Translations under genes and position numbers: made by a program
NCBI GenBank assembly: GCA_963855995.1
Contig: OY979730.1
Span: 9,587,300-9,651,299 of the forward strand
Source of the DNA: Muricea muricata
Taxonomy: Eukaryota > Cnidaria > Anthozoa > Malacalcyonacea > Plexauridae
Direction of reading: 5' to 3'
Length of the DNA: 64,000 nt
The notes under the pieces: model-generated
What the model saw: the letters and a program-made list of their open reading frames with translations, nothing else
Database searches by the model: none
What the model was told of the DNA's origin: nothing
Part shown: one piece after another, positions 17,547 through 64,000 of the stretch
How positions within the stretch are numbered: the stretch's first letter is position 1
Layout: each line of letters begins with the position of its first letter

Positions 17547-18671
17547 TTAACGAAGACCAATGGCAGTTCCAAATGCATCTGTCCAGCGATCACTCGAAGT
17601 GTAAGTACCACATCCTCCAAAATGCATTTCGGTAAGAAACAAGAAGTTGTTAGGTAATTGGCGATGACCATACGAGGGAACACCAGTTTTTCGCCACTCT
17701 ACTGACACACCACGCCTTTCATAAACCAGGTTTCCACTGTGATAGGGACTGATTGCTCCCTCCTGATGATTTGGGAACAAGGCGAAATAGGAGTTTGGAT
17801 TAGCATCGCAATTTTTGAAAGTCACACTTTTACCATTTGATCTAAACATAAATTGTTGATTCATAATTTTACTATAAGCAAATCACCTTCTGTATATGAC
17901 TTGAAAATTTAAACGTAACCTTCAATTTTATTTGATAATTCCCCATACCTGAAGCCTTGAGTGGTCCTGGCTTTTGCAAGGGACACTGGTAATATACCAA
18001 GATAAATATAATCACCAAGCCCATGATTCAAAGGGCTTGTGTACCCAGCATGGTTGTGCATTAACACACCCAGTTGTTGTTTGGAATAGGTAGGAAGTTG
18101 AGTTATGAGTGTAAATGGTTGAAGGCCATTCTTCTTTTGAAAACGGAGAAGAACTCTGGTTCTATCTTTAAAAATTTGATTTATCAGGTTAGGAAGCTGT
18201 CCTTGTCTGACTGCCTCGCGTGGTATGAAGGTGTATCCACCACCATCTTTTGCCATCTCGCAATAGACTGTGATCACAGTGTTGTCAACCAAAATATCAT
18301 AGAGGCCACTCTGTGCACCAGGTGCACTATTTTTAATTTCAAGACACGAGCGCTTGTACGTTGTTGAATACACTCCTGGTCTGACTATCGTCTATCAAAG
18401 AACAACAGAAAACGGCATGATTAAAAAGTATTAAATTGACCATCAGTTATTTATAATTATTATTATTATTTTTTACAAATGATTATTATTATTCAAATTG
18501 AGAAAACGCTCACTGACTTTAAAATATTTATTTTTGTTACGAGCTTTCGGCTATCAGCCTTCGACGGGTAAATGATAATAGTCTAAAGGACGCTGAAATG
18601 TGAGGTGTAGCTTGAAACCTGATTCAAGTGTATATTTACATGTGGTGCTAAGTTAATAAGTGCAAGTATAT

Positions 18672-18720
<49 letters not shown>

Positions 18721-19206
18721 TTGCACTTATTAACTTAGCACCACATGTAAATATGGTGCTAATTTGCGAATTGTATCAGGTTTCAAGCTACACCTCACAT
18801 TTCACCGTCGAAGGCTATAGTCTGATAGCCGAAAGCTCGTAACAAAAATAAATATTTTAAAGTCAGAGAGCGTCTTCTCAATTTGAATATGTTTAATCCT
18901 GGCTACGCGTCATCCATATTTTCTATAGTTATTATTATTTTTTAGAAATGATTGTTATTATTTTTATTATTATCATCATTGTTATTATTATTATAATTAT
19001 CAATGTCAAGTAATATTAAGAAATAGACTGAAAACCTCTCAGTGTCCAAACATCCAGGCAGTGCATAGCAATACGAGAACGAATACAAACTATATATACA
19101 AAACTATCTGTAAAACTATAAACGCTTATTAATAAATGTAACTGATTCTTACCGTAAATACACCGCTCACATTGAGTAGAAGACAAAATAGGGCTACACG
19201 ATGCAT
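17547..19206 (-). CDS. Fibrinogen-like secreted protein, copy A
   Basis: Exons 19206-19153, 18391-17949 and 17841-17547 join in frame to 263 residues. Exon 1 encodes a hydrophobic signal peptide (MHRVALFCLLLNVSGVF). The next exon carries a segment like the start of fibrinogen C-terminal domains: SCLEIKNSAPGAQSGLYDI, then VYCEMAKDGGGYTFIPR. The remainder (GVLMHNHAGYT, FKNCDANPNSYFALFPNH, HFGGCGTYTSSDRW) does not follow classical fibrinogen and looks like a cnidarian-type extracellular family. Six or so Cys fit a secreted protein. A ligand or function cannot be read from sequence. A second possible first exon lies at 20151-20204. The 761-base intron 1 contains a foldback and AT repeats. Confidence 0.75.
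18495..18892. repeat. Foldback with (TA)n core and decayed hammerhead-like arms
   Basis: Arms of about 170 bases mirror each other around a (TA)n core at 18667-18719 (shared words TTCAAGCTACACCTCACATT, GTGCTAAGTTAATAAGTGCA). The outer arms contain GTCGAAGG...AGCCGAAAGCTCG, which resembles a damaged Penelope hammerhead motif. One arm alone recurs in copy B at 27525-27602. Confidence 0.7.
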
Positions 19207-19337
19207 CCTGTGAGCTAGGGAGAAAAACAGACAGAAATAATAATACGTTAATAAAATAATAATAAAACGGATAAGTTACAGCGTTTGGTTTTATTAGAGT
19301 ATGGTTGTGATTTCTTAATGATTTTCCAGTTATACTT

Positions 19338-19591
<254 letters not shown>

Positions 19592-19627
19592 TACCCCTAT
19601 AATCTTGCTGTCTTCCCCTATAATCAT

Positions 19628-19710
<83 letters not shown>

Positions 19711-19925
19711 TTGTTTCTGTTGTAGAAATAAGGAATGGACGAAACCAGGTTTATTGAAATTCTAAAGCCATATCGTATTTGTATATAGTCGTGGATTGCA
19801 TTGTAATGTATATTATGTATTTTTATAATTGCTATTTTACCTAATATATCAAGTAGCCGACTGTAATTACCTTTTTAAAATGAGATTTACTGTTGTAAAT
19901 GTATAGAAAAATAAAAATAAAATTT

Positions 19926-26356: not shown

Positions 26357-29366
<3,010 letters not shown>

Positions 29367-35964: not shown

Positions 35965-42567
<6,603 letters not shown>

Positions 42568-44982: not shown

Positions 44983-47900
44983 ATGGGTTGCTGTGGTTCT
45001 AAACCACAAGAGACGAAACATAAAGTCCCGGACTTGAATGCGAGTGATAACAAGTTAAACAACCAAGCTCCTGAGGTACCACCGCCGCCAGAGTTGCCAG
45101 CCGAGCCCGTTCAAAACGATATAAAGGTTTACATTGCCTTGTACGATTACGATGCGAGGACGGACGAGGACTTGTCCTTCAACAAGGGCGACTATTTGGA
45201 AGTAAAAGCGGAAAACTGCCAGTTCGACTGGTGGACGGCGACGTCTCGTTCCACGGGAAAAACTGGTTACATCCCGAACAACTATGTCGCCGAGGTTAAA
45301 AGCCTTGAAGCCGAAGAGTAAGTGGGATTTTATGTGTCACTTAGAGTATCATATGAACTGTATTAAACGCTTTCTTTCCACTGAAATGTCTCTATACAGA
45401 CATTGCTACATACCAACCGCTGCTAATACTCGAAAGAATTCGACATAAACAGTGCTTACTGAATTTCTTAATTTCATAATGTATCGGTATTTACTTAGCA
45501 AATCCTTCGTTATTGAATACATTGTTAGAAATCAAAGCACGAAATCGATGGGCAACACGGGTTTTGTTGTTGGATATTGTTTCATACCTAGTGTAAGATG
45601 TGTTCATTTAAATTCAAGCAACAATACCGGCCTATTGCCCGTGTCGATTTTCTACTTCCGCCACCTTTCTGTTTGTTTTTTTCGCCTCTTTGTTATGGCT
45701 GTGTCACGCCACAATCGGAGCGCACAAAATTTGGACGAAAGTCTCGCCAAACTTTCAGTACTTTGTACAAGAATTTAAGATATTTCTCATACAATAAGAT
45801 GCGAGCGGACGGTGTGTTTACACGCCCGTCGGCAATTCCACAAAAGATTAAAATATTCAGGAGCTTCGTTGGAGGTTGGGTGCGTAGCATGACTGCGATA
45901 TAGTCTTTAACATGAGTAACAGTTTGAAGAATATGTACCAAAAAGTTCGACCTGAAAAATGACTATTGTATAATATGTTTCGGTGAGTTTTCTCGGCGAA
46001 TGCGGCCGGGAGGAGCCATGTTAATTGCATGCATAATTTTTTAATTTGTAAAATGATATTGACAATATTTGTCAAGTGCCACAGTTTCTATAGGATATCA
46101 GTTTGCAACTAAATTTCTTTAAAAAAGAGGCGCCAAAGTGGTTTTGTGGTCAAATTTTTTGAATTCAGACGTAGCTATATCTGCATGTCATCAGAGAAAT
46201 GCGAAGTTGTTTGAGCATAGCCCAGACAACTACTTTAAACAGAGCGAAAAATATAGTGCCCATGTGCTTCCTGTCATGTCGTATCTTCAGTGCCGGTTTT
46301 GCAAAAAAGTATTGGAAATCAATAAAAATCGCCTGTTTGATAATCAAGCTGCTATCGACTACAAAACGGCTAGTTAAAGTGTAATTTAGCGCTTCTCCCT
46401 GTGTCATTTGTAACTTTATAGCGGTATTCACCGGATATTGTTTTTTAACTGTTTTAAAATGCTTATAAAAGCTATAAAATTACAAAATGTGGACCTGGCA
46501 AGCGATAAAAGGAAAATCAGTTAGGTTGGAAATACTGATGTGTAAGCCGATTCAGATCAATCAACGGGTCAGAGATCGCCATTCCATAGAGAGCGCTATC
46601 GTGTCTTTATATTGTAATGTCATCTTGACCCGCACTTTTTTATTTGGCCTTATTCTCCCTCAAGATACAGAGCAAAGCTAAACACGCACAAATCGATCGG
46701 CACCTATCTACTTGTTGCAGAAGTGCGGCTTAATTGATGAAATTGACAAGTTTGTTGTAAATCGTCGAAAAAAATGCAACAAGCCGCGGTAAAATTGACA
46801 ACTTGCAACAGGTCTGTGACTTTTTTGGCCCTTTAGAGCGGCGAAATATCTTTCTCAGTTTGTAAATCGTCCAACATAGCTTGCAGGAGTACTTAAGATG
46901 ACAGGCTATTTACATGTTTTAAAAACCTGGCAGTTGAACGATCCAAGGTCACTCGTTGAATGATCTAGGATTTTCGCTTGTCAGTCCAATACGTCGAGGA
47001 CTCGTAAACGAAATTTTCACTTTCTATGTTTTTGTATGTGAAACAGTGTCGGGCATTTACAGGGGGGGGTATAGATATTGTAAAGATAGACAAACCTAGA
47101 AGCATTGTTTCCTAGCCATGTTTCCGAAGGTGGACAAACCAAGAGACATTGTTTCCCCGCCATGTTTCCTGAAGATGGACAAACCAAGAAACATTGTTTC
47201 CCAGTCATGTTTCCTGAAGGTGGACAAACCAGGAAACATTGTTTCCTAGCCATGTGTCCTGAAGGTGGACAAACTAGGAAACATTATTTCCTAGCCATGT
47301 TTCCTGAAGGTGGACAAACCAGGAAACATTGTTTCCAAGCCATGTTTCCTGAAGGTCGTATAAACATTGCAGTTTCCTAAAACAGAAAAAGGCCTGGAAA
47401 CCACAGGAGCATTTATGCTCTCGAAACTATGGTTTTGACCCCATGCTTTTGATCCTAGTTAGAAATTTCTGCGCCCCTACTCGAAGGCTTATTTTTGCTC
47501 TACTGAAGATTCATTTGATGGAAGAATCGTTATAAGATGTAGAGTCAAAATAAAAGATGTTTGAAATCGTTCTAAGAGTCGCAGGGGACCGATAACAACA
47601 ACTCCAAAAAGAGGGAACGAGACCTAATTCCACTCTTCGCTGGAGTCATTGTACTCTGTGCTAGAGATATTTGACTCTTTATGTCAGTCAATAAACTAGA
47701 AAAGGAATCAATTATTGACTGCTGATAGACATTAGAGGTCCTTACGTTACGCCAGAATTAAACAATGAATTGCAATGCAATGTGGGAAACATGTGGGAAA
47801 AATTTACCTTGTATTTATATGCATTGAAAACCGCGTGACGTAAGCACTTCTAAGGCTAATTCAAGAGTCATTTTTCTTTAGTAAAGCAAAACGACACTTT

Positions 47901-50895
47901 TTAAGGAGTACATTCCAGTTTATCCTTTCGCTGTGTCAGAACGATTCTTAAATTGTAAAACTCTTTGAAATGACTCGAAATGAACTCTCCATGTGATCAA
48001 AATGACTCGTGAAAAAAGTCAGATTAACTTTTTAAAAGAGTGTAGGAAATGCCAAAATGAGCCTTTTTTAGTTCGTTTCGAAACATGCTTCCAGTATGAG
48101 GAGGTGGGCAATGTTTGAAAATATTTTGAAACCTTTTTTACGAAATAAAGATCATTTCTCGTTTCAGCTGGTATTTCGGCAAGGTGAGCCGTGTCGAAAC
48201 TCAGAAACTACTCCTGGCCGAAGTAAATGCACATGGGTCCTTCTTGATACGCGAGAGCGAGTCCGTACCCAATACCTACGCACTTTCTCTACGTGATACG
48301 GATACTGTGAGGCATTACAAAATCAAGAGATTGGACAATGGCGGGTATTTTATTTCCAAAAACCGTGAATTCGAAAGTTTGCAGAGCCTTGTTGCTTTTT
48401 ATCTGCAAGAACCCGAAGGCTTGTGTTGTAAACTGGTTGCACCGTGTATCAAAGTAAGTTTCGATGATTAATACTGGTGTAACAGGAAATATGCCCCCCC
48501 CCCAAAAAAAAAATCCCCCGGGCCGTATTTCCTAGGAAATATGGCCCCCTTTCGGAAACCCTAAAACAAATTTCCTAAGAGGGGGTCATATTTCCTAGGA
48601 AATTTTTGACGTTTATTGTTTCAACTCAAAACTAAGAAAAATTGAAGGGGGGGGGGGGGGGTTACCATGTAAAGGTGTCAACTTTTTGTAGTACGCACGA
48701 GCCAATAAAATTTGTGAAGGAAGAATTGCTTGTATTATAGTTTGGGTTTCCTTTACGCTTGATCAATAAGAGGTGGTCATTAGAATACACAATATGATTT
48801 TCTTTCTAGACAGACATCCCTCAAACCAAGGGAATATCGCATAAAATGGCGGACAAGTGGGAAATCAACAGATCCGAGCTCACTTTTAAAACACGTCTTG
48901 GTGCCGGCAATTTCGGCGAGGTCTGGGAGGGTCTTTGGAACAAAACCACAAAGGTCGCCATCAAGACACTTAAGGAAGGCACCATGTTGCCAGAAAAATT
49001 CCTGGAAGAGGCTGAGATTATGAAGAAGTTGATTCATCCGAAGCTCGTGCAGTTGTTCGCTGTTTGTTCAAGAGAGGAGCCAATTTATATCGTGACGGAA
49101 CTGATGGAGAATGGGAGCCTGTTGGATTATTTGAGAGGGCCTAAAGGAAAGTTGATGAAGATGCCCAAACTGATTGATATTGCAACGCAGGTACAAATAA
49201 ATACAAGTACAAATAGATCCTAAGAGATCATGCTTACTGGACCTCTCGGAAGAAGAGTTTAGAACTGATCTAGCTCTCCAGTACAAATGAAGTTAGTTTA
49301 GTTTAGATTTTCTCCTGTAGTAACACTGGATCAATAAGAGATGATCCTTACTGGATCACTAGGAAGAACAGTTTAGAACTGATAGAGATATCCAGTATAA
49401 ATAAAGTTAGTTTAGTTTGGTTTCCCTCCTGCAGTAACACTGGATCAATAAGAGATGATCCTTACTGGACCTCTAGGGAGAACAGTTTAGAACTGATGGA
49501 GCTATCCAGTATAAATAAAGTTAGTTTAGTTTGGTTTCCCTCCTGTAGTAACACTGAATCAATAAGAGATGATCCTTAGCAAACCTCTAGGAAGAATATA
49601 TTTTAGAACTGTGTGACACAGGATCAACGAGGGAAGATCCTTACTAAAGAAGAATAGGTTCGAAATGAAGAAGCAGGGTTTTACTACTTGTTTTGAGAAT
49701 CTATATCTCGCAGTTTTACCGCCAATTTATGGATTTTCTTTGTCTAAAGGTTGCACAAGGTTTGGCATTTTTAGAAAAACATGGCTACGTTCATCGTGAC
49801 TTGGCCGCTCGTAACGTTTTGGTTGGCAAAACGTTGAACGTAAAGGTTGCCGATTTTGGTCTCAGCCGATCTGTTGTGGAAGATGAGTATGTTGCCCACG
49901 AGGGAGCGAAGTTTCCCATCAAGTGGACAGCGCCAGAGGCGTGTCTCACGAATGCGTTTTCAACCAAATCTGACGTTTGGTCGTTTGGTGTTCTCATATC
50001 GGAACTCGTGACCTATGGCCGAATTCCGTACCCCGGCATGAGCAATCATGAGGTATGGATCACAGAATAGTAAATAACCAGAAGCATAATGCAACACATA
50101 ATAGGAGAAGAACCAGTCCAACGTTTTTGTCCGCAGAAAAGTGCAATAGACAAGTTCTTTCTGACTATGATGATTATTTATTTTTCTCTAAATTGAGTAA
50201 AATTTAGAGTATATTTTCCCCCTTGCTCTCTTTTTTGACTGTTAGATGTAGCCTGATACGAGTTTAGATAAAGAAAATACAGACTTTTACACAGCTCTTC
50301 GACTAACAGCATCAGTTTTTATCGCTAAACAACTCGTCTTTAAATTACAAAATCACTTTAGGTACATGTAGTATCCATCACATGAGTTGTATTTTAGAAC
50401 TCGAGGAAGAGACGAGACTACTAGTTGTATATCGGATACAGTAGGAACACGATTGTGAAACTCTTCAATCTCTTGGCAGTAATTTTAAAAATGCATCTTA
50501 CATAACACGAGAAAATCAAAGACAAAATTAAAGTTCATTTCACATATCCCTTATGACTCCTTCACGCTCATGGTTTCTTCTGTGCCTTCGTGAATTGTTA
50601 ACTGTTCACAACTAAAAATATTTTTATATGTTTTTTTAATGTTTTCGTGGGCCAGTTCAATTCCAATACGTTTGATGAAATTTTATAGGTAATCAGAAAA
50701 ATCGAAGAGGAAGATTACAGGATGCCGAAGCCGGCAAATGCTCCGGAAAAATTATACAAAGATATTATGTTAAAATGCTGGGCCAAGGAGCCTGATGATC
50801 GCCCGACGTTTGAGACGTTGAGTTGGCAACTCGACGAGTTCTTCAGCGACGATACTCAATATAAAGAAGCTGATGAAGTAAACACTATCCGTTAA
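44983..50895 (+). CDS. Src-family tyrosine kinase, complete and apparently active (gene 2)
   Basis: Exons 44983-45317, 48168-48453, 48810-49190, 49750-50052 and 50689-50895 give 503 residues. MGCCGSKPQ has Gly2 and Cys3/Cys4 for myristoyl and palmitoyl anchors. A proline-rich patch ([12 protein letters not shown], about 31-42) precedes SH3 (ALYDYDA to NYVAEV, about 49-108). SH2 follows (about 113-207, with FLIRES). The kinase domain has the GAGNFGEV loop, Lys259 (VAIK), Glu274, HRD 349-351 in [11 protein letters not shown] 369-371, activation Tyr381 and APE. Tail Tyr493 (DDTQYKEA) is a candidate Csk site. Every catalytic residue is present. It should phosphorylate substrates at the inner face of the plasma membrane. 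It is the first of three tandem Src genes. Confidence 0.96.
46705..46815. repeat. CAACAAG-type repeat array
   Basis: Short array (GATGAAATTGACAAGTTTG, GACAACTTGCAACAGGTCTG) in intron 1 of the second kinase gene. The rest of this 2.85 kb intron has the minisatellite at 47090-47375 and nothing else recognised. Confidence 0.5.
47090..47375. repeat. 45-bp minisatellite in kinase intron
   Basis: About six copies of a 45-base unit (GTTTCCTAGCCATGTTTCCT, then GAAGGTGGACAAACCAGGAA and ACATT). The period is a multiple of three, so both strands stay open without being genes. Confidence 0.9.
49222..49640. repeat. 114-bp tandem repeat in kinase intron
   Basis: Nearly four copies of a 114-base unit (AGAGATGATCCTTACTGGAC, GAACAGTTTAGAACTGAT, AAATAAAGTTAGTTTAGTTT) fill most of the intron between exons 48810-49190 and 49750-50052. 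Confidence 0.9.
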
Positions 50896-56082: not shown

Positions 56083-59000
56083 ATGGGAAATTCTGTCGAC
56101 AAGGAGGAACCGGTAGTCCTCATTGCCGCCTCGCGATTATCACAAACCGACATCGAGCCGAGTGATGAACACTCGACACTGCCTCTGCATCATCAGTCAC
56201 AACAGTCGCTCGCCTCAAATAGCAGGGCTAGTAATGAATATTCGACACTACCAATGGTTTATCGGACCAAACAGTCGCTCACCGCATGCGATGACGTCGA
56301 ACCGTCGCCTAAAAGCGACGTACGTCTCTTTGTGGCTCTCTTCGACTACGATGCTCGAACGTCGGAAGATTTGACGATCAAAAAAGGCGACTATTTGGAA
56401 GTAAAGCCAGAGAATACCGCGTTCGATTGGTGGCAGGCGAAATCACGATCGAGCCAACAGGAAGGTTACATTCCTAGCAACTATGTAGCCGAAGTCAACC
56501 CTCTCGAAGCTGAAGAGTAAGTAGATAGCTTATTAAATTTTTTGCAGCCACGCAAAGTGTACTTGTACTTGGTCAGCCATGAGGCAAAATAAGATACGCA
56601 AAGTGAAAGTGGATTCTGCAACAGAAAACGAATTGAATATTTTGCACCATGCCGTCTTGAATTCCTCGATTTCGGTTAAATAGTATTTTGCCAAAAAAAA
56701 CGAAGCAAAAATAGTTTTATTCACCATCTTGACGACGTTCTTCTGGCCATGTTATCGCGAGCGGAAAAGGTGTTAAATGGAAAGCACCATCTTTTTCCCA
56801 GAAATAGACGCCCGCTTAGGCGTTTACTCCGCCTGCCGAGAAGAAACTGGGCACGAGGTGATCTTTTGTGAGACATTAGGGTGAGATAAGAACCAGAGCA
56901 CAGGAGGCGACACGCAACAATATGCCTCATGTTTTCCGGGGTTTGCAATGTCGAATAAATAATGCAATTCTTCCTCTGGAAATAAAAGCAAATAGGAAGT
57001 TCAGTCACAGTTTGCGGACCTCTAGATCAATCAAGCAGTCATTTTGTTGGCATATTTATCTAGGTCGGTGAAATGGAAATCCACAATGCTTTATCGATGT
57101 TAAGCTCGGATTAACAAGTTAACAACACTTAAAAGCAACTATTTTCTCGTACTAATTTTGGATCGGATATGTTCGCAATCGCCAGTGAAATGTTCCAAGC
57201 GTTGTTCTGTTCAAAATATGTAGTCTTTGCATCACAAACTCTTGCCTTGTTTCACTACACTAGCTGCATTCAAAACATCAAGGCAAATTCAACGTACATC
57301 GCTTCAACCACTCCAGGCCATCATACAATGCAATAAATTCAGAAAGCTTCAGAAATGCACTCGATGTGAATAAATATACCTCGAAAACGTAAAAAATGAT
57401 TACTTTGTTTATCTAGAGGTCGGCAAACCATGCCTGAGCTACCAGCGGGCAGGCGGAGAAAAACTGAATGCTACCATCTGTAGATGAAGTAACTAGTACT
57501 CTTGATTTTTTAAATTATTTTATAATTTAGTTGGTTTTATGGTGGAATTTCTCGTGAAGAAGCAGTGGAGCATCTCCTATCCCTTGTCAACAAAGATGGC
57601 GCTTTCTTGATCAGAGAAAGCAAAAATCCAGACAACAAATATGCACTGTCAGTTCGTGTTGGCGACAAGGTCAGGCACTACAGAATACACACACTTAACA
57701 ACAACCAAGGATTCTTTATCACAAGAGGAAACGAGTTTACGACCCTCCAAGATTTGGTAGAGAATTACAAAAAAGAATCAGTTTATTATCCATGTAACAA
57801 GGTGAGATTTTTGGTTTTTGCATTAGTAGATTATTGGGAGAGGGTTAGGAGGTGCCCAAAAACCCGAATCCATGATTTGGAAGGAAGAGTAGTGGTGTGT
57901 GTGTGAATTTAGAACTAAACATAGACTATCATAAACTATGACTTATTTCAATAACTTGAAATCATGTTACTCTTTATGTAATCCTGGGTACGCAGGATCA
58001 TATAATAAGCCTTTAGATCTGGAATTACTATGATGTTGAATAAGTAAGCAATTAAAACAAGTGGATTTTGTTATAATTCCAGGTGGGAAAAGCACAAACA
58101 GTTGGTCTACCTTACAACATGGCTGATAAATGGGAAATAGACAAAAGTGCGCTTAAATTCCTAAAAAAGCTTGGGGCTGGGAATTTTGGTGAGGTCTGGG
58201 AAGGTTTATGGAATGACAAGGTAAAAGTTGCGATCAAAATCCTCCGAGAAGGAAACATGCAACCCGAGGCATTCTTACAAGAGGTCGAAATAATAAAGAA
58301 ACTTATCCACCCGAAATTAGTTCAATTGTACGCAGTATGCTCCCGCGAAGAGCCAATTTACATCGTCACCGAACTAATGACGAAAGGCAGTTTGTTGGAA
58401 TTCCTCCACGGAGAGGGACGACAAGTTCTAAATTTGACAAAAATGATCGACATCTCAGCTCAGGTGGCAGAAGGAATGGCGTTCTTGGAGTCGCATGGCT
58501 GCGTCCATTATAACTTGGCCGCAAGAAATGTCTTAGTCGGCGATGGCTTGATCGTAAAGATCGCCGATTTCAGCCTGTGTGGTCCATATGTTGATGATGA
58601 GTGCGGGGTCCACGAAGGTGCTAAGTTACCAATCGAGTGGACTGCACCAGAAGTGATCTTCGAGAATAAATTCTCGATAAAATCCGATGTGTGGTCGTTT
58701 GGTATTTTGCTGTATGAAATAACAACGTTTGGTGGAATCCCTTACGCGGGAATGCTCAATGCTGAGGTATGTCATTTATAAATGTTTTCAATAATGAAAC
58801 AAAATGCAACCGTGTAAACTTGATAGAGTAGTAATAATCCTGCACAGATCAAAGGTGCGTTTGACACTAGTTTAATTTTTGAGTAATTCGAATCACTGAT
58901 ACTTCGTAATCCGACTTTGTCAGAAATCTACTAATCCAGTTCTAATCACAGATTCTATTGTTCCATCTTTCAGTTATTCAAATGTTGAAATAGTCTCCTT

Positions 59001-59347
59001 AGTATCATGTTTTTCAAAGTAAATTACACTGTGAGAATCACAACACAAACAATCCTATGATTTTTTAAATATTCACACATTCATGCACCTTAACAATAAT
59101 ACGCAGGCGAGTTTCCCTGCATAAACTAAGTATCCTAATTTTCCAGGTCATACGAAACATTGCCGATACGACATACAGAGTGCCGAAACCAGCAAATGTT
59201 CCCGAAAGACTCTACGCTATCATGTTACATTGTTGGACAGCCGCGCCCGAAGAACGACCAACGTTCGAAACTCTAACATGGCAGTTGGACAAGGACTTTA
59301 TCTTTGACAGAGGGACATTGTTTAGTGCCGATTCTATAGACTTTTAG
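56083..59347 (+). CDS. Src-family pseudokinase, complete (gene 3)
   Basis: Exons 56083-56516, 57531-57801, 58083-58766 and 59147-59347 give 529 residues with all junctions in phase. MGNSVDKEEP allows myristoylation but has no nearby Cys. The unique region holds two related blocks, DEHSTLP and NEYSTLP. SH3 (ALFDYDA to NYVAEV) and SH2 (FLIRES present) follow; SH2 is seven residues shorter near its end than in the next gene. In the kinase domain the GAGNFGEV loop, Lys287 and Glu302 remain, but HRD is H377-Y378-N379, DFG is D397-F398-S399, and the activation-loop Tyr site is Cys409 (DDECGVHEGAKLPIEW). The tail ends SADSIDF with no Tyr. Phosphotransfer is therefore unlikely. One intron present in gene 2 is absent here (exon 3 is fused). 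Expected role: membrane scaffold or decoy. Confidence 0.93.
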
Positions 59348-61328: not shown

Positions 61329-64000
61329 ATGGGAAATTGTTGTGAAAAGAAGGAGCCATGGGGTACAGAGATGTTTCAAAGACGTTCCCCCGAAGCCGAT
61401 ATTACGTCGGATAATGAATATGCGACATTGCCATTTGTCAGTCTTCAGACGAAACAGTCGTTCGCCGCAAGTGAAACAAGAGTCCACTCGTCGTCACTGA
61501 ACAATCAAGTCGAACGCGACGTACGTGTGTTTGTGGCTCTCTTCGACTACGATGCTCGAACGTCGGAAGATTTGACGTTCAAAAAAGGCGACTATATGGA
61601 TGTAGAGAAGGCAGAGAATACTGCGTACGATTGGTGGCGAGGGAAGTTGCAATCGACCCAAGAAGAAGGATACTTTCCCGGAAACTATGTGGCCGAAGCA
61701 AATAGTCTCGAAGCTGAAGAGTAATTAGATACCTTACTAAATTGATATTATATATTATAATATTGCATTTGTGAATCCTGAACGCTGATTGGTTAAGAGC
61801 CGTGTTTACATAACTCAATGTAAACACGGAAAATTTCCCGCCACTTGTAAACACGGAAGTTTTTCGTATCCTTCGGGCTTTTGACATTGCTATATTATAA
61901 AGCAAACTCCGCCCTTTGGGCGTCGTATTTCCACACAATTTCTCGTTTTCCCAATTCGACTCGTGTTGATATAAGTATATCGACACGGAAAATGCTTTAT
62001 ATTTGTTAATTATTACATGGTTATGGGTGTTTTACCGTAAACTAAAACACTCGTATTTTTCATATTTTCACAAGTGAAGGTATGAAAAAAAATGTAACGC
62101 GTGAAAATCGCGTGTGTTTTCCCGTGGGATTTACATGTTCTCTGTTCGCTTGTCCCGACCTCTGACCATATAATAAAAAGAACATTACACGGTAGCTTGA
62201 AGATATGAATATTATTTTCTCGTCTTGAAAATAATATTGTTTTCACCACTCGAAAATAATATTCATATCTTCGCGCCACCGTGTAATATCCTGGTTATGG
62301 CTAAAGGGGAAGGACGAGAGGTAGGTTTTCAAAATGGTACGACAACAAGACATTTATAGCATTCCTAAATCGTGGTTAGGTTCAAGGTGAGCTTTAGCAA
62401 TGATATAAACGTTTGGTTGTTGATTCGTTCGTTCACGTTTTAAAAGAATCTTGAAAAACAGCCGCCATCTTGAAAACCTACCTCTCGCCATGACTGTAAT
62501 ATATGTGCTTGCATATATAAAACTTTGGCAATCACACAAAGTGTGCACTTAGTCAGCAGCATTGAGACGAAGGTGAAAGTGGATTTAAGAAAGGAAACTG
62601 GGTCCCTCAATCCAAGCCCTACATCTAATCTCAAATGTTTAAATCTTCATGATCAACCATCAAAGTTAAAACATGTCAAATAAAACGTTAGTTAGGGTCA
62701 GAATTAGGGCTTGGATTACGATTTATATTCGCCATACTGAGAACATGGAATTGGAAACTGAAAAGCCTTTCCTCATCATGACGTCAGTCCGGAACAATTT
62801 ATGTAACATGAAATTTGATTGGATCGACATTTTTTCGTAAATTTATTCAGAAAAAATGATAAAAAAAGAACGACTGTACCCCACATAACATGAACACTCC
62901 GGAAACAATCGTGATCAGTGTTTATGATTCGTTCTTTAGAAATATACTGATTTCTATGATTTTATATTATTGTCTTTTATTGTCTCGATCAGCCAATCAC
63001 AGAATCTGTGCGCATGGGTAGGTGGCGACACGAAGACTATAGAAAAAAAACGTAAACTGAGCGAATTTTAAAGCTGGCGTTCTAAGCGGCCGAAGCAGAG
63101 TAAAAAACTCCGCTACCAGCAGAGTAACTTGATTTCTTCTCTTGACTTTTTTATTGTGCTTTATTTTAGTTGGTTTTATGGTGGAATTTCTCGTGAAGAA
63201 GCAATGAAACATCTTCTATGCCCTGTCAACAAAGATGGTGCCTTCTTGATCAGAGAAAGGGAAAATGTGGATGACAAATATGTACTGTCAGTTCGTGTTG
63301 GTGACGAGGTCCAGAACTACAGAATAAAAGTACTTGACAACAGCAAAGGGTTTTTTATGACCAAAGGAGGGGAGTTTGCGACGCTCCAAGATTTGGTCGA
63401 GCATTATTATAAAAACAAAGCTGACGGTGTTTGCTTTAATTTAAAACTGCCATGCATCAAGGTGAGTCTAATTGACTTTTAACTTTTCCTTATGGAGCCG
63501 CTCTTTCAAAGCTGTTTTAGCTGACTATGAGTTTAAGCCACTGTTTTAGTTTCTGTATATCTCCACATTTCTGTTTATTTTAGAACATCGCACACACGTG
63601 TGTGGGGGAGGGCTACTGTTTGTGCTTGCCATAGAAAAATTGTAATAATAAAATAAGATCATTCTGGCAAAATTGCAATACCTAATAACTCTTATAATTC
63701 CAGGTGGAAAAACCACCAACAGTCGGTCTGTCTTACAACATGGCTGATAAATCGGAAATAGACAAAAGTGCGCTTAAATTCCTAAAAAAGCTTGGAGCGG
63801 GGAATTTTGGCGAGGTCTGGGAAGGTTTATGGAATGACAAGGTAAAAGTTGCGATTAAAATCCTTCGAGAAGAAACCGTGCAGCCTGAGGCATTCTTGGA
63901 AGAGGCCGAGATAATGAAAAAACTTATCCATCCGAAATTAGTTCAATTGTACGCGGTATGCTCCCGCGAAGAGCCAATTTACATCGTCACCGAACTAATG
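61329..64000 (+). CDS. Src-family kinase, 5' part (gene 4, cut by window end)
   Basis: Exons 61329-61720, 63170-63461 and 63704 to beyond 64000; 327 residues are visible. [10 protein letters not shown] has Gly2 with Cys4 and Cys5 for dual acylation. The unique region carries [10 protein letters not shown]3 (ALFDYDA to NYVAEA) and a full-length SH2 (FLIRER, ending [11 protein letters not shown]) follow. The N-lobe has GAGNFGEV, Lys280 and [11 protein letters not shown] and is almost the same as in gene 3, so the two are recent duplicates. The conserved Trp at the linker-kinase border (ADKWEI in genes 2 and 3) is Ser245 here (ADKSEI). Whether HRD and DFG are intact cannot be seen. Confidence 0.94.
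61757..61910. mobile_element. MITE family 2, copy 2 (inverted)
   Basis: Inverted relative of 44250-44395: CGCTGATTGGTTAAGAGCC, CAATGTAAACACGGAAAATT, TTTGACATTGCTATATTATA. It lies in intron 1 of the fourth kinase gene, about 35 bases after exon 1. Confidence 0.75.
62184..62290. repeat. Hairpin element
   Basis: Arms ATTACACGGT...GAAGATATGAATATTATTTTC and the inverted GAAAATAATATTCATATCTTC...ACCGTGTAAT close on about 30 bases, directly before foldback family 1 copy 3. Confidence 0.8.
62297..62495. repeat. Foldback MITE family 1, copy 3
   Basis: Same termini as the copies at 4238 and 51851 (CGAGAGGTAGGTTTTCAAAA; TTGAAAACCTACCTCTCG). The left arm is shortened. In intron 1 of the fourth kinase gene. 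Confidence 0.75.

Follow-up and report, generated by a model that had tools for sequence, protein, structure and literature searches.

Pseudokinases are defined in one review as proteins with a kinase fold that lack one or more of the VAIK Lys, the HRD Asp and the DFG Asp, with class IV comprising those that bind nucleotide and cation without phosphotransfer, for example HER3 (PMC8141879). In a survey of 82 kinase-like non-kinases from human, mouse, rat and fly, HRN and DFG are given for HER3 (P21860) and HGN for the JAK JH2 domain; 13 of the 82 proteins have an SH2 domain, and SH3 domains go unmentioned in its text (PMC2754085). For c-Src, kinase-independent functions have been tabulated, and kinase-deficient Src protects src-/- mice against osteopetrosis (PMC3215182).

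The window analysed here, 64,000 bases of contig OY979730.1 (C15; positions 9587300-9651299) within a 453-Mb genome, contains a Src-family gene, designated copy B, in which the HRD Asp is Asn inside a domain with a Pfam kinase match of 291 bits, and in which the HRD, DFG and activation-loop Tyr of active Src-family kinases are replaced by HYN, DFS and Cys409. Copy B resembles c-Src and HCK in its SH3-SH2-kinase order, full-length similarity, linker Trp and SH3 and SH2 pocket residues, but differs from them in HYN and DFS, in the absence of the loop Tyr, the canonical tail Tyr and the linker Pro, and in its acidic, Cys-free N-terminus. With HER3/ErbB3 it shares Asn for the catalytic Asp, the retained Lys, helix-C Glu and DFG Asp, and an otherwise active family; however, HER3 is a receptor and an allosteric activator of its partners, whereas copy B appears to be cytoplasmic, carries SH3 and SH2 domains and is altered in the DFG motif and HRD Arg as well. 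In JAK JH2, too, an SH2 domain adjoins a pseudokinase with Asn for the catalytic Asp, but JH2 precedes an active kinase in the same chain, whereas copy B has no second kinase domain. Engineered kinase-deficient c-Src likewise combines the full Src-family architecture and kinase-independent functions with the lack of catalysis (PMC3215182), but these are laboratory mutants, whereas copy B is natural and has additional regulatory losses.

With its Gly-loop, VAIK Lys and DFG Asp in place, copy B fits class IV by motif, and nucleotide binding is predicted. Stops, frameshifts, lost splice sites and neutral rates throughout, the marks of a processed or unitary pseudogene, were not found in copy B; recent decay without disablement is possible. 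A search for a Src pseudokinase in a partial literature collection, one without the main pseudokinase survey, returned no paper, which fits the first-pass annotation's remark that such proteins are rarely described. The novelty of a pseudokinase with full Src architecture is thus likely rather than established.

The Src-family array and the structure of copy B

Six Src-family copies (A to F) lie in tandem on a single strand within C15:9630001-9730000, the 100 kb examined. A canonical Src gene (C15:9582706-9589207) is located 43 kb upstream of the array, with its last exons at positions 1-95, 1044-1454 and 1468-1908 of the window. Copy B is the pseudokinase-type member, HRD, DFG and the loop Tyr being retained in all five other copies. 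The first-pass annotation had described it as a complete gene at 58083-59347 between two intact paralogues. The gene is indeed complete, but that interval is limited to its two kinase exons; in full, it spans 56083-59347 and has four exons, 529 codons, no internal stop and GT-AG introns throughout, with canonical splice sites. As for the paralogues, the catalytic motifs of A and C are intact, but the word fits the regulation of C only loosely, since Ser replaces the linker Trp and the canonical tail Tyr is absent, the C-terminus being SIDFY. The complete copy C in the contig encodes 524 aa with HRD, DFG and Tyr.

Copy D (C15:9653471-9679452), with introns of up to about 16 kb, has GNFS in the Gly-loop, DWC and Y134H in SH3, and R153S in SH2; perhaps it is also degenerating, in domains other than those affected in B. 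In copy E (C15:9692607-9695061) kinase exons alone are seen, and tblastn found no SH3 or SH2 exon nearby.

Table 1. Features of copy B and its neighbours, in window coordinates
Feature	Position	Strand	Remark
Copy A, Src-family gene of five exons with HRD/DFG/Tyr and a tail Tyr	44983..50895	+	complete within window
Copy B exon 1, N-terminus MGNSVDKEEP and SH3, residues 1-145	56083..56516	+	ATG, GT donor
Segment of some 230 bases covering SH3, with ~96% identity to D and F and 84% to C	56300..56530	+	
Copy B exon 2, SH2, FLIRES Arg kept, BG-loop region shortened	57531..57801	+	Pfam and copy comparison
Copy B exon 3, SH2-kinase linker and most of kinase domain, residues 236-463	58083..58766	+	
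Ala239 at the linker Pro position of the five other copies and HCK	58092..58094	+	
Glycine loop GAGNFG, intact	58173..58190	+	
Lys287 of VAIK, kept	58236..58238	+	
Glu302 of helix C, kept	58281..58283	+	
HYN replacing HRD (R378Y, D379N)	58506..58514	+	
DFS replacing DFG (G399S)	58566..58574	+	
Cys409 replacing activation-loop Tyr	58602..58604	+	
Copy B exon 4, C-lobe end and tail SADSIDF without canonical tail Tyr	59147..59347	+	
Copy C, HRD/DFG/Tyr, tail SIDFY	61329..64000	+	cut by window end; runs to contig position 9652196

Pfam detected SH3, SH2 and PK_Tyr_Ser-Thr in copy B, in Src-family order, and its best PDB matches were HCK and Src (E 2.3e-131), the alignment spanning residues 79-512. 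The SH3 and SH2 pocket residues are present, among them the Arg of the pTyr pocket and the aromatic residues of SH3, and the linker Trp is kept. Every residue named in the first-pass annotation (HYN, DFS, Cys409 and the tail without Tyr, in an open frame of 529 residues) was found in the sequence, and the domains and residues it reported as kept (SH3, SH2, ATP-loop and Lys287) were recovered as Pfam domains, GAGNFG and the VAIK Lys.

Other features of the window and genome

The genome contains 147 PF07714 matches, and on another contig (C9:4326674-5058354) twelve tyrosine-kinase-like matches of this type lie on one strand in open frames of 1209-2479 aa. Elsewhere in the window, two near-identical stretches about 9 kb apart (17909-19874 and 26930-29057) represent a tandem duplication; each contains an ORF of 160-162 aa that has no Pfam match, and long TA repeats come after it. 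An ORF at 36178-37035 matches GIY-YIG below the threshold (20.6 bits against a cut-off of 22.6) and is perhaps a retroelement remnant, and a Kelch-like gene with BTB-BACK and Kelch exons occupies 37342-42567. On the mitochondrial contig (19,292 bases) there is a MutS reading frame of 987 aa, in which MutS and HNH domains are recognised, and ARAGORN found a single tRNA, tRNA-Met; a mitochondrial MutS and a lone tRNA-Met are marks of octocorals. A second COX1 match, with one TAA inside, lies on a large contig (C1:38414782-38416095) and is either a nuclear copy or foreign DNA.

Loss of catalytic residues in copy B

In addition to the replacements in Table 1, the kinase domain of copy B carries K420E (the P+1 Lys) and changes at F417 and at R402 of the activation segment, while N384 and D397 are kept. 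At 119 kinase positions identical in A, C, D, E, F and human HCK, copy B departs at 13, and 7 of these changes fall in the catalytic loop and activation segment (24 of the 119 positions; P=0.0045). Leave-one-out counts of such departures were 3/109 for each of C, D and E, 0/106 for F and 13/119 for the older outgroup copy A. Kinase activity is unlikely because the HRD Arg, the DFG Gly, the loop Tyr, F417, K420 and R402 are changed besides the Asp-to-Asn replacement, and by these residues copy B is very probably crippled as a catalyst.

A weak or conditional kinase, in which Asn379 would allow slow phosphotransfer or activity would arise only in a complex with an active copy, agrees with the retained ATP/Mg-binding residues and with the report that HER3 and JAK2 manage some catalysis with HRN (PMC7586955); an Asp-to-Asn change by itself is thus no proof of inactivity. 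However, copy B is also changed at the HRD Arg, the DFG Gly, the loop Tyr, the P+1 Lys and R402, and evolution in its active-site segments looks neutral (see below), which makes this alternative improbable.

It is far less probable still that the changes are assembly or sequencing errors or that A-to-I editing restores the residues (AAC to GAC, AGC to GGC). A single A-to-G step would turn Asn379 or Ser399 into the active residue, but Tyr378 to Arg and Cys409 to Tyr are beyond the reach of editing, and RNA hairpins as an editing signal were discarded, since local RNA folds were no stronger than those of shuffled sequences (z 0.36). Assembly error, which the first-pass annotation had named as a possible source, does not fit at least 13 conserved-site changes in an open frame, several of them two-base (CGT to TAT), unlike sequencing error.

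No second HYN kinase was found with the pattern HYN[LF]A in the genome: it gave 6 matches (4 for a reversed-pattern control), of which five had no kinase context on translation, judged by eye, and the sixth was copy B. Likewise, no spliced retrocopy at least 60% identical was found outside the array among the 84 places listed (82 of 306 candidates scored), so that this indirect sign of copy B expression is lacking. Promoter conservation was considered and set aside: identity over the 250 bases upstream was 58% for B-D, 41% for B-F and 37% for B-C, beside only 57% for D-F and 31% for C-F, all in a forced alignment without a control.

Regulatory features

The linker reads KAQTVG in copy B vs KPQTVG, the Pro being missing in B alone of the six copies. 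Among the five copies that have the N-terminal exon, B alone is without an N-terminal Cys (MGNS vs MGNC or MGCC); Gly2 is present, and position 6 is Asp, this position being acidic also in C. The consensus for myristoylation is an N-terminal signal with Cys or basic residues. At the BG loop, the SH2 domain of B falls 5-7 residues short of those of A, C, D and F, exon 2 having 271 bases vs 286-292.

A and F carry QYKEA in the tail, whereas the C-terminal regulatory Tyr is absent in B. The tails of B (SADSIDF) and C (RAHSIDFY) are homologous, and the canonical tail Tyr was also not seen in D and E, the last exon of D having been read short of the stop codon. Since the active copy C is also without it and has the homologous SIDF tail, the loss of the tail Tyr probably preceded the catalytic losses of B. 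The claim that catalysis, activation and tail-regulation sites were lost together was therefore not borne out, the tail Tyr being missing in the catalytically intact C as well.

Mosaic history of the SH3 segment

The SH3 region of copy B has a history different from that of its kinase domain: dS was 0.026 (B-D) and 0.055 (B-F) in SH3 vs 0.340 (B-D) and 0.412 (B-F) in the kinase, and the SH3 of B is nearly identical to that of F. These values suggest that B, D and F were recently homogenised over this segment, with gene conversion as the probable cause. Such recent homogenisation makes SH3 conservation poor evidence for selection on B. In exon 4, unlike exon 3, copy B has 85-86% identity with D, E and F but only 77% with C.

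Selection on the branch leading to copy B

A codon model (own code) was fitted to copies B to F, with A left out because of saturated synonymous sites. Without partitioning, omega on the B branch was 0.54 for the kinase (p=0.042 vs 1; p=0.16 vs background), and by part it was 0.18 for the N-lobe, 0.72 for the C-lobe and 0.81 for SH2, the latter two not different from 1. Standard motifs then served to divide the kinase into 37 codons of the catalytic loop and activation segment and the 229 others. Omega was 1.37 inside the active-site segments (p=0.42 vs 1) and 0.40 outside (p=0.0048 vs 1; p=0.14 vs background), with p=0.0022 for the difference. In exon 3 alone the values were 1.35 inside and 0.31 outside (p=0.001 vs 1; difference p=0.0006). 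The pattern was reversed in the active neighbour C (0.30 inside, 0.78 outside), although not significantly (p=0.22). Parsimony assigned 8 nonsynonymous and 1 synonymous change to B inside the segments and 17 and 22 outside (Fisher p=0.024), a count that drops 11 of 266 codons as ambiguous, 4 of them inside. The active-site segment was chosen because an earlier observation pointed there; a scan of all windows of 30-60 codons gave P values of 0.025, 0.157, 0.050 and 0.064.

Two histories were compared: i) decay of the whole kinase over the last part of the B branch, and ii) release confined to the active site. This focal release was ahead by 0.52-2.49 lnL in 5 of 6 settings, the exception being the C-lobe alone (-0.04), and by 1.8 lnL in both exon 3 fits. 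Against a free model, decay was rejected in 4 of the 6 settings (p 0.009-0.037; the others 0.070 and 0.125) and in both exon 3 fits (p 0.041 and 0.039), whereas focal release was rejected in none of the 8. A model without change on B, with omegas equal to background, was rejected against focal release in 1 of 6 settings (p 0.022; the others 0.063-0.25). In neutral simulations of exons 2-4, 0.4% of 2000 runs were stop-free at the estimated branch length (0.145 per site), compared with 6.5% for a length of 0.06 and 25% for one of 0.03; the last value makes a short recent neutral phase of B possible.

The main alternative is that copy B is a redundant tandem copy at the start of its decay, in which catalysis was lost recently and the whole gene now drifts, the frame still unbroken and the SH3 renewed through gene conversion. 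Elsewhere in the array, too, copies seem to degenerate (the Gly-loop, SH3 and SH2 changes of D, and E with kinase exons only), and the C-lobe and SH2 omegas of B are compatible with 1. Decay is also at most 2.5 lnL behind focal release in all six settings and marginally ahead in the C-lobe. Moreover, the unique changes of B at deep-invariant kinase sites do not avoid HCK-shared positions (13/17, P=0.57), unlike those of D (3/8, P=0.023) and E (3/9, P=0.009); copy C shows a tendency to avoid them (3/7, P=0.06). Against decay are i) an omega of 0.31-0.40 outside the active-site segments, below 1 (p 0.001-0.005), ii) the preference for focal release in 7 of 8 settings, and iii) the absence of stops and frameshifts, expected in only 0.4% of full-branch runs, though in 25% at a fifth of the branch. 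We regard decay as disfavoured, while granting it a substantial chance of being correct. The selection tests favour retention of copy B, with moderate, not decisive, support. The selected non-catalytic role proposed in the first-pass annotation is thus upheld as far as constraint outside the active site is concerned (omega 0.40, p=0.005); it is weakened in that decay is only disfavoured and SH3 retention is weak evidence.

A possible role for copy B

The explanation that we put first, with about even confidence, is that copy B is a Src-family pseudokinase whose active site has been released from selection while its fold has stayed constrained, and that it most likely serves as an SH3-SH2 adaptor by the mechanism outlined here. 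After tandem duplication, the active site would have been freed from selection, with the rest of the kinase fold kept under constraint. The protein may still bind nucleotide, as do class IV members such as HER3, with little or no phosphotransfer. Because the linker Pro and tail Tyr are absent, the closed Src state presumably could not hold, which would leave SH3 and SH2 exposed, and weaker membrane anchoring would make the protein more cytosolic. It could then bind proline-rich and phosphotyrosine sites common to the active copies and scaffold or compete there. The first-pass annotation's idea that it dampens its active neighbours is conjectural.

Few decoys have been proven among pseudokinases according to the review (PMC8141879). 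The kinase-independent functions of c-Src, taken with the predicted exposure of SH3 and SH2, speak for an open adaptor whose ligands are also those of the active copies. The fullest form of this proposal, a constitutively open, membrane-released SH3-SH2 adaptor that is retained next to its active paralogues, shares its SH3 through recurrent gene conversion and acts as a built-in competitor or scaffold, is offered tentatively and is on balance doubtful.

If copy B is decaying instead, it would reveal what a Src kinase gives up first. If the adaptor reading is true, one array holds kinases together with a competitor or scaffold for their ligands, and the active sister copies in the same cluster are ready controls. 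That Src does part of its work without catalysis has long been known from engineered mutants deficient in kinase activity; if a natural pseudokinase of the family has been retained, it would demonstrate that the adaptor role can be split from the enzyme in evolution.
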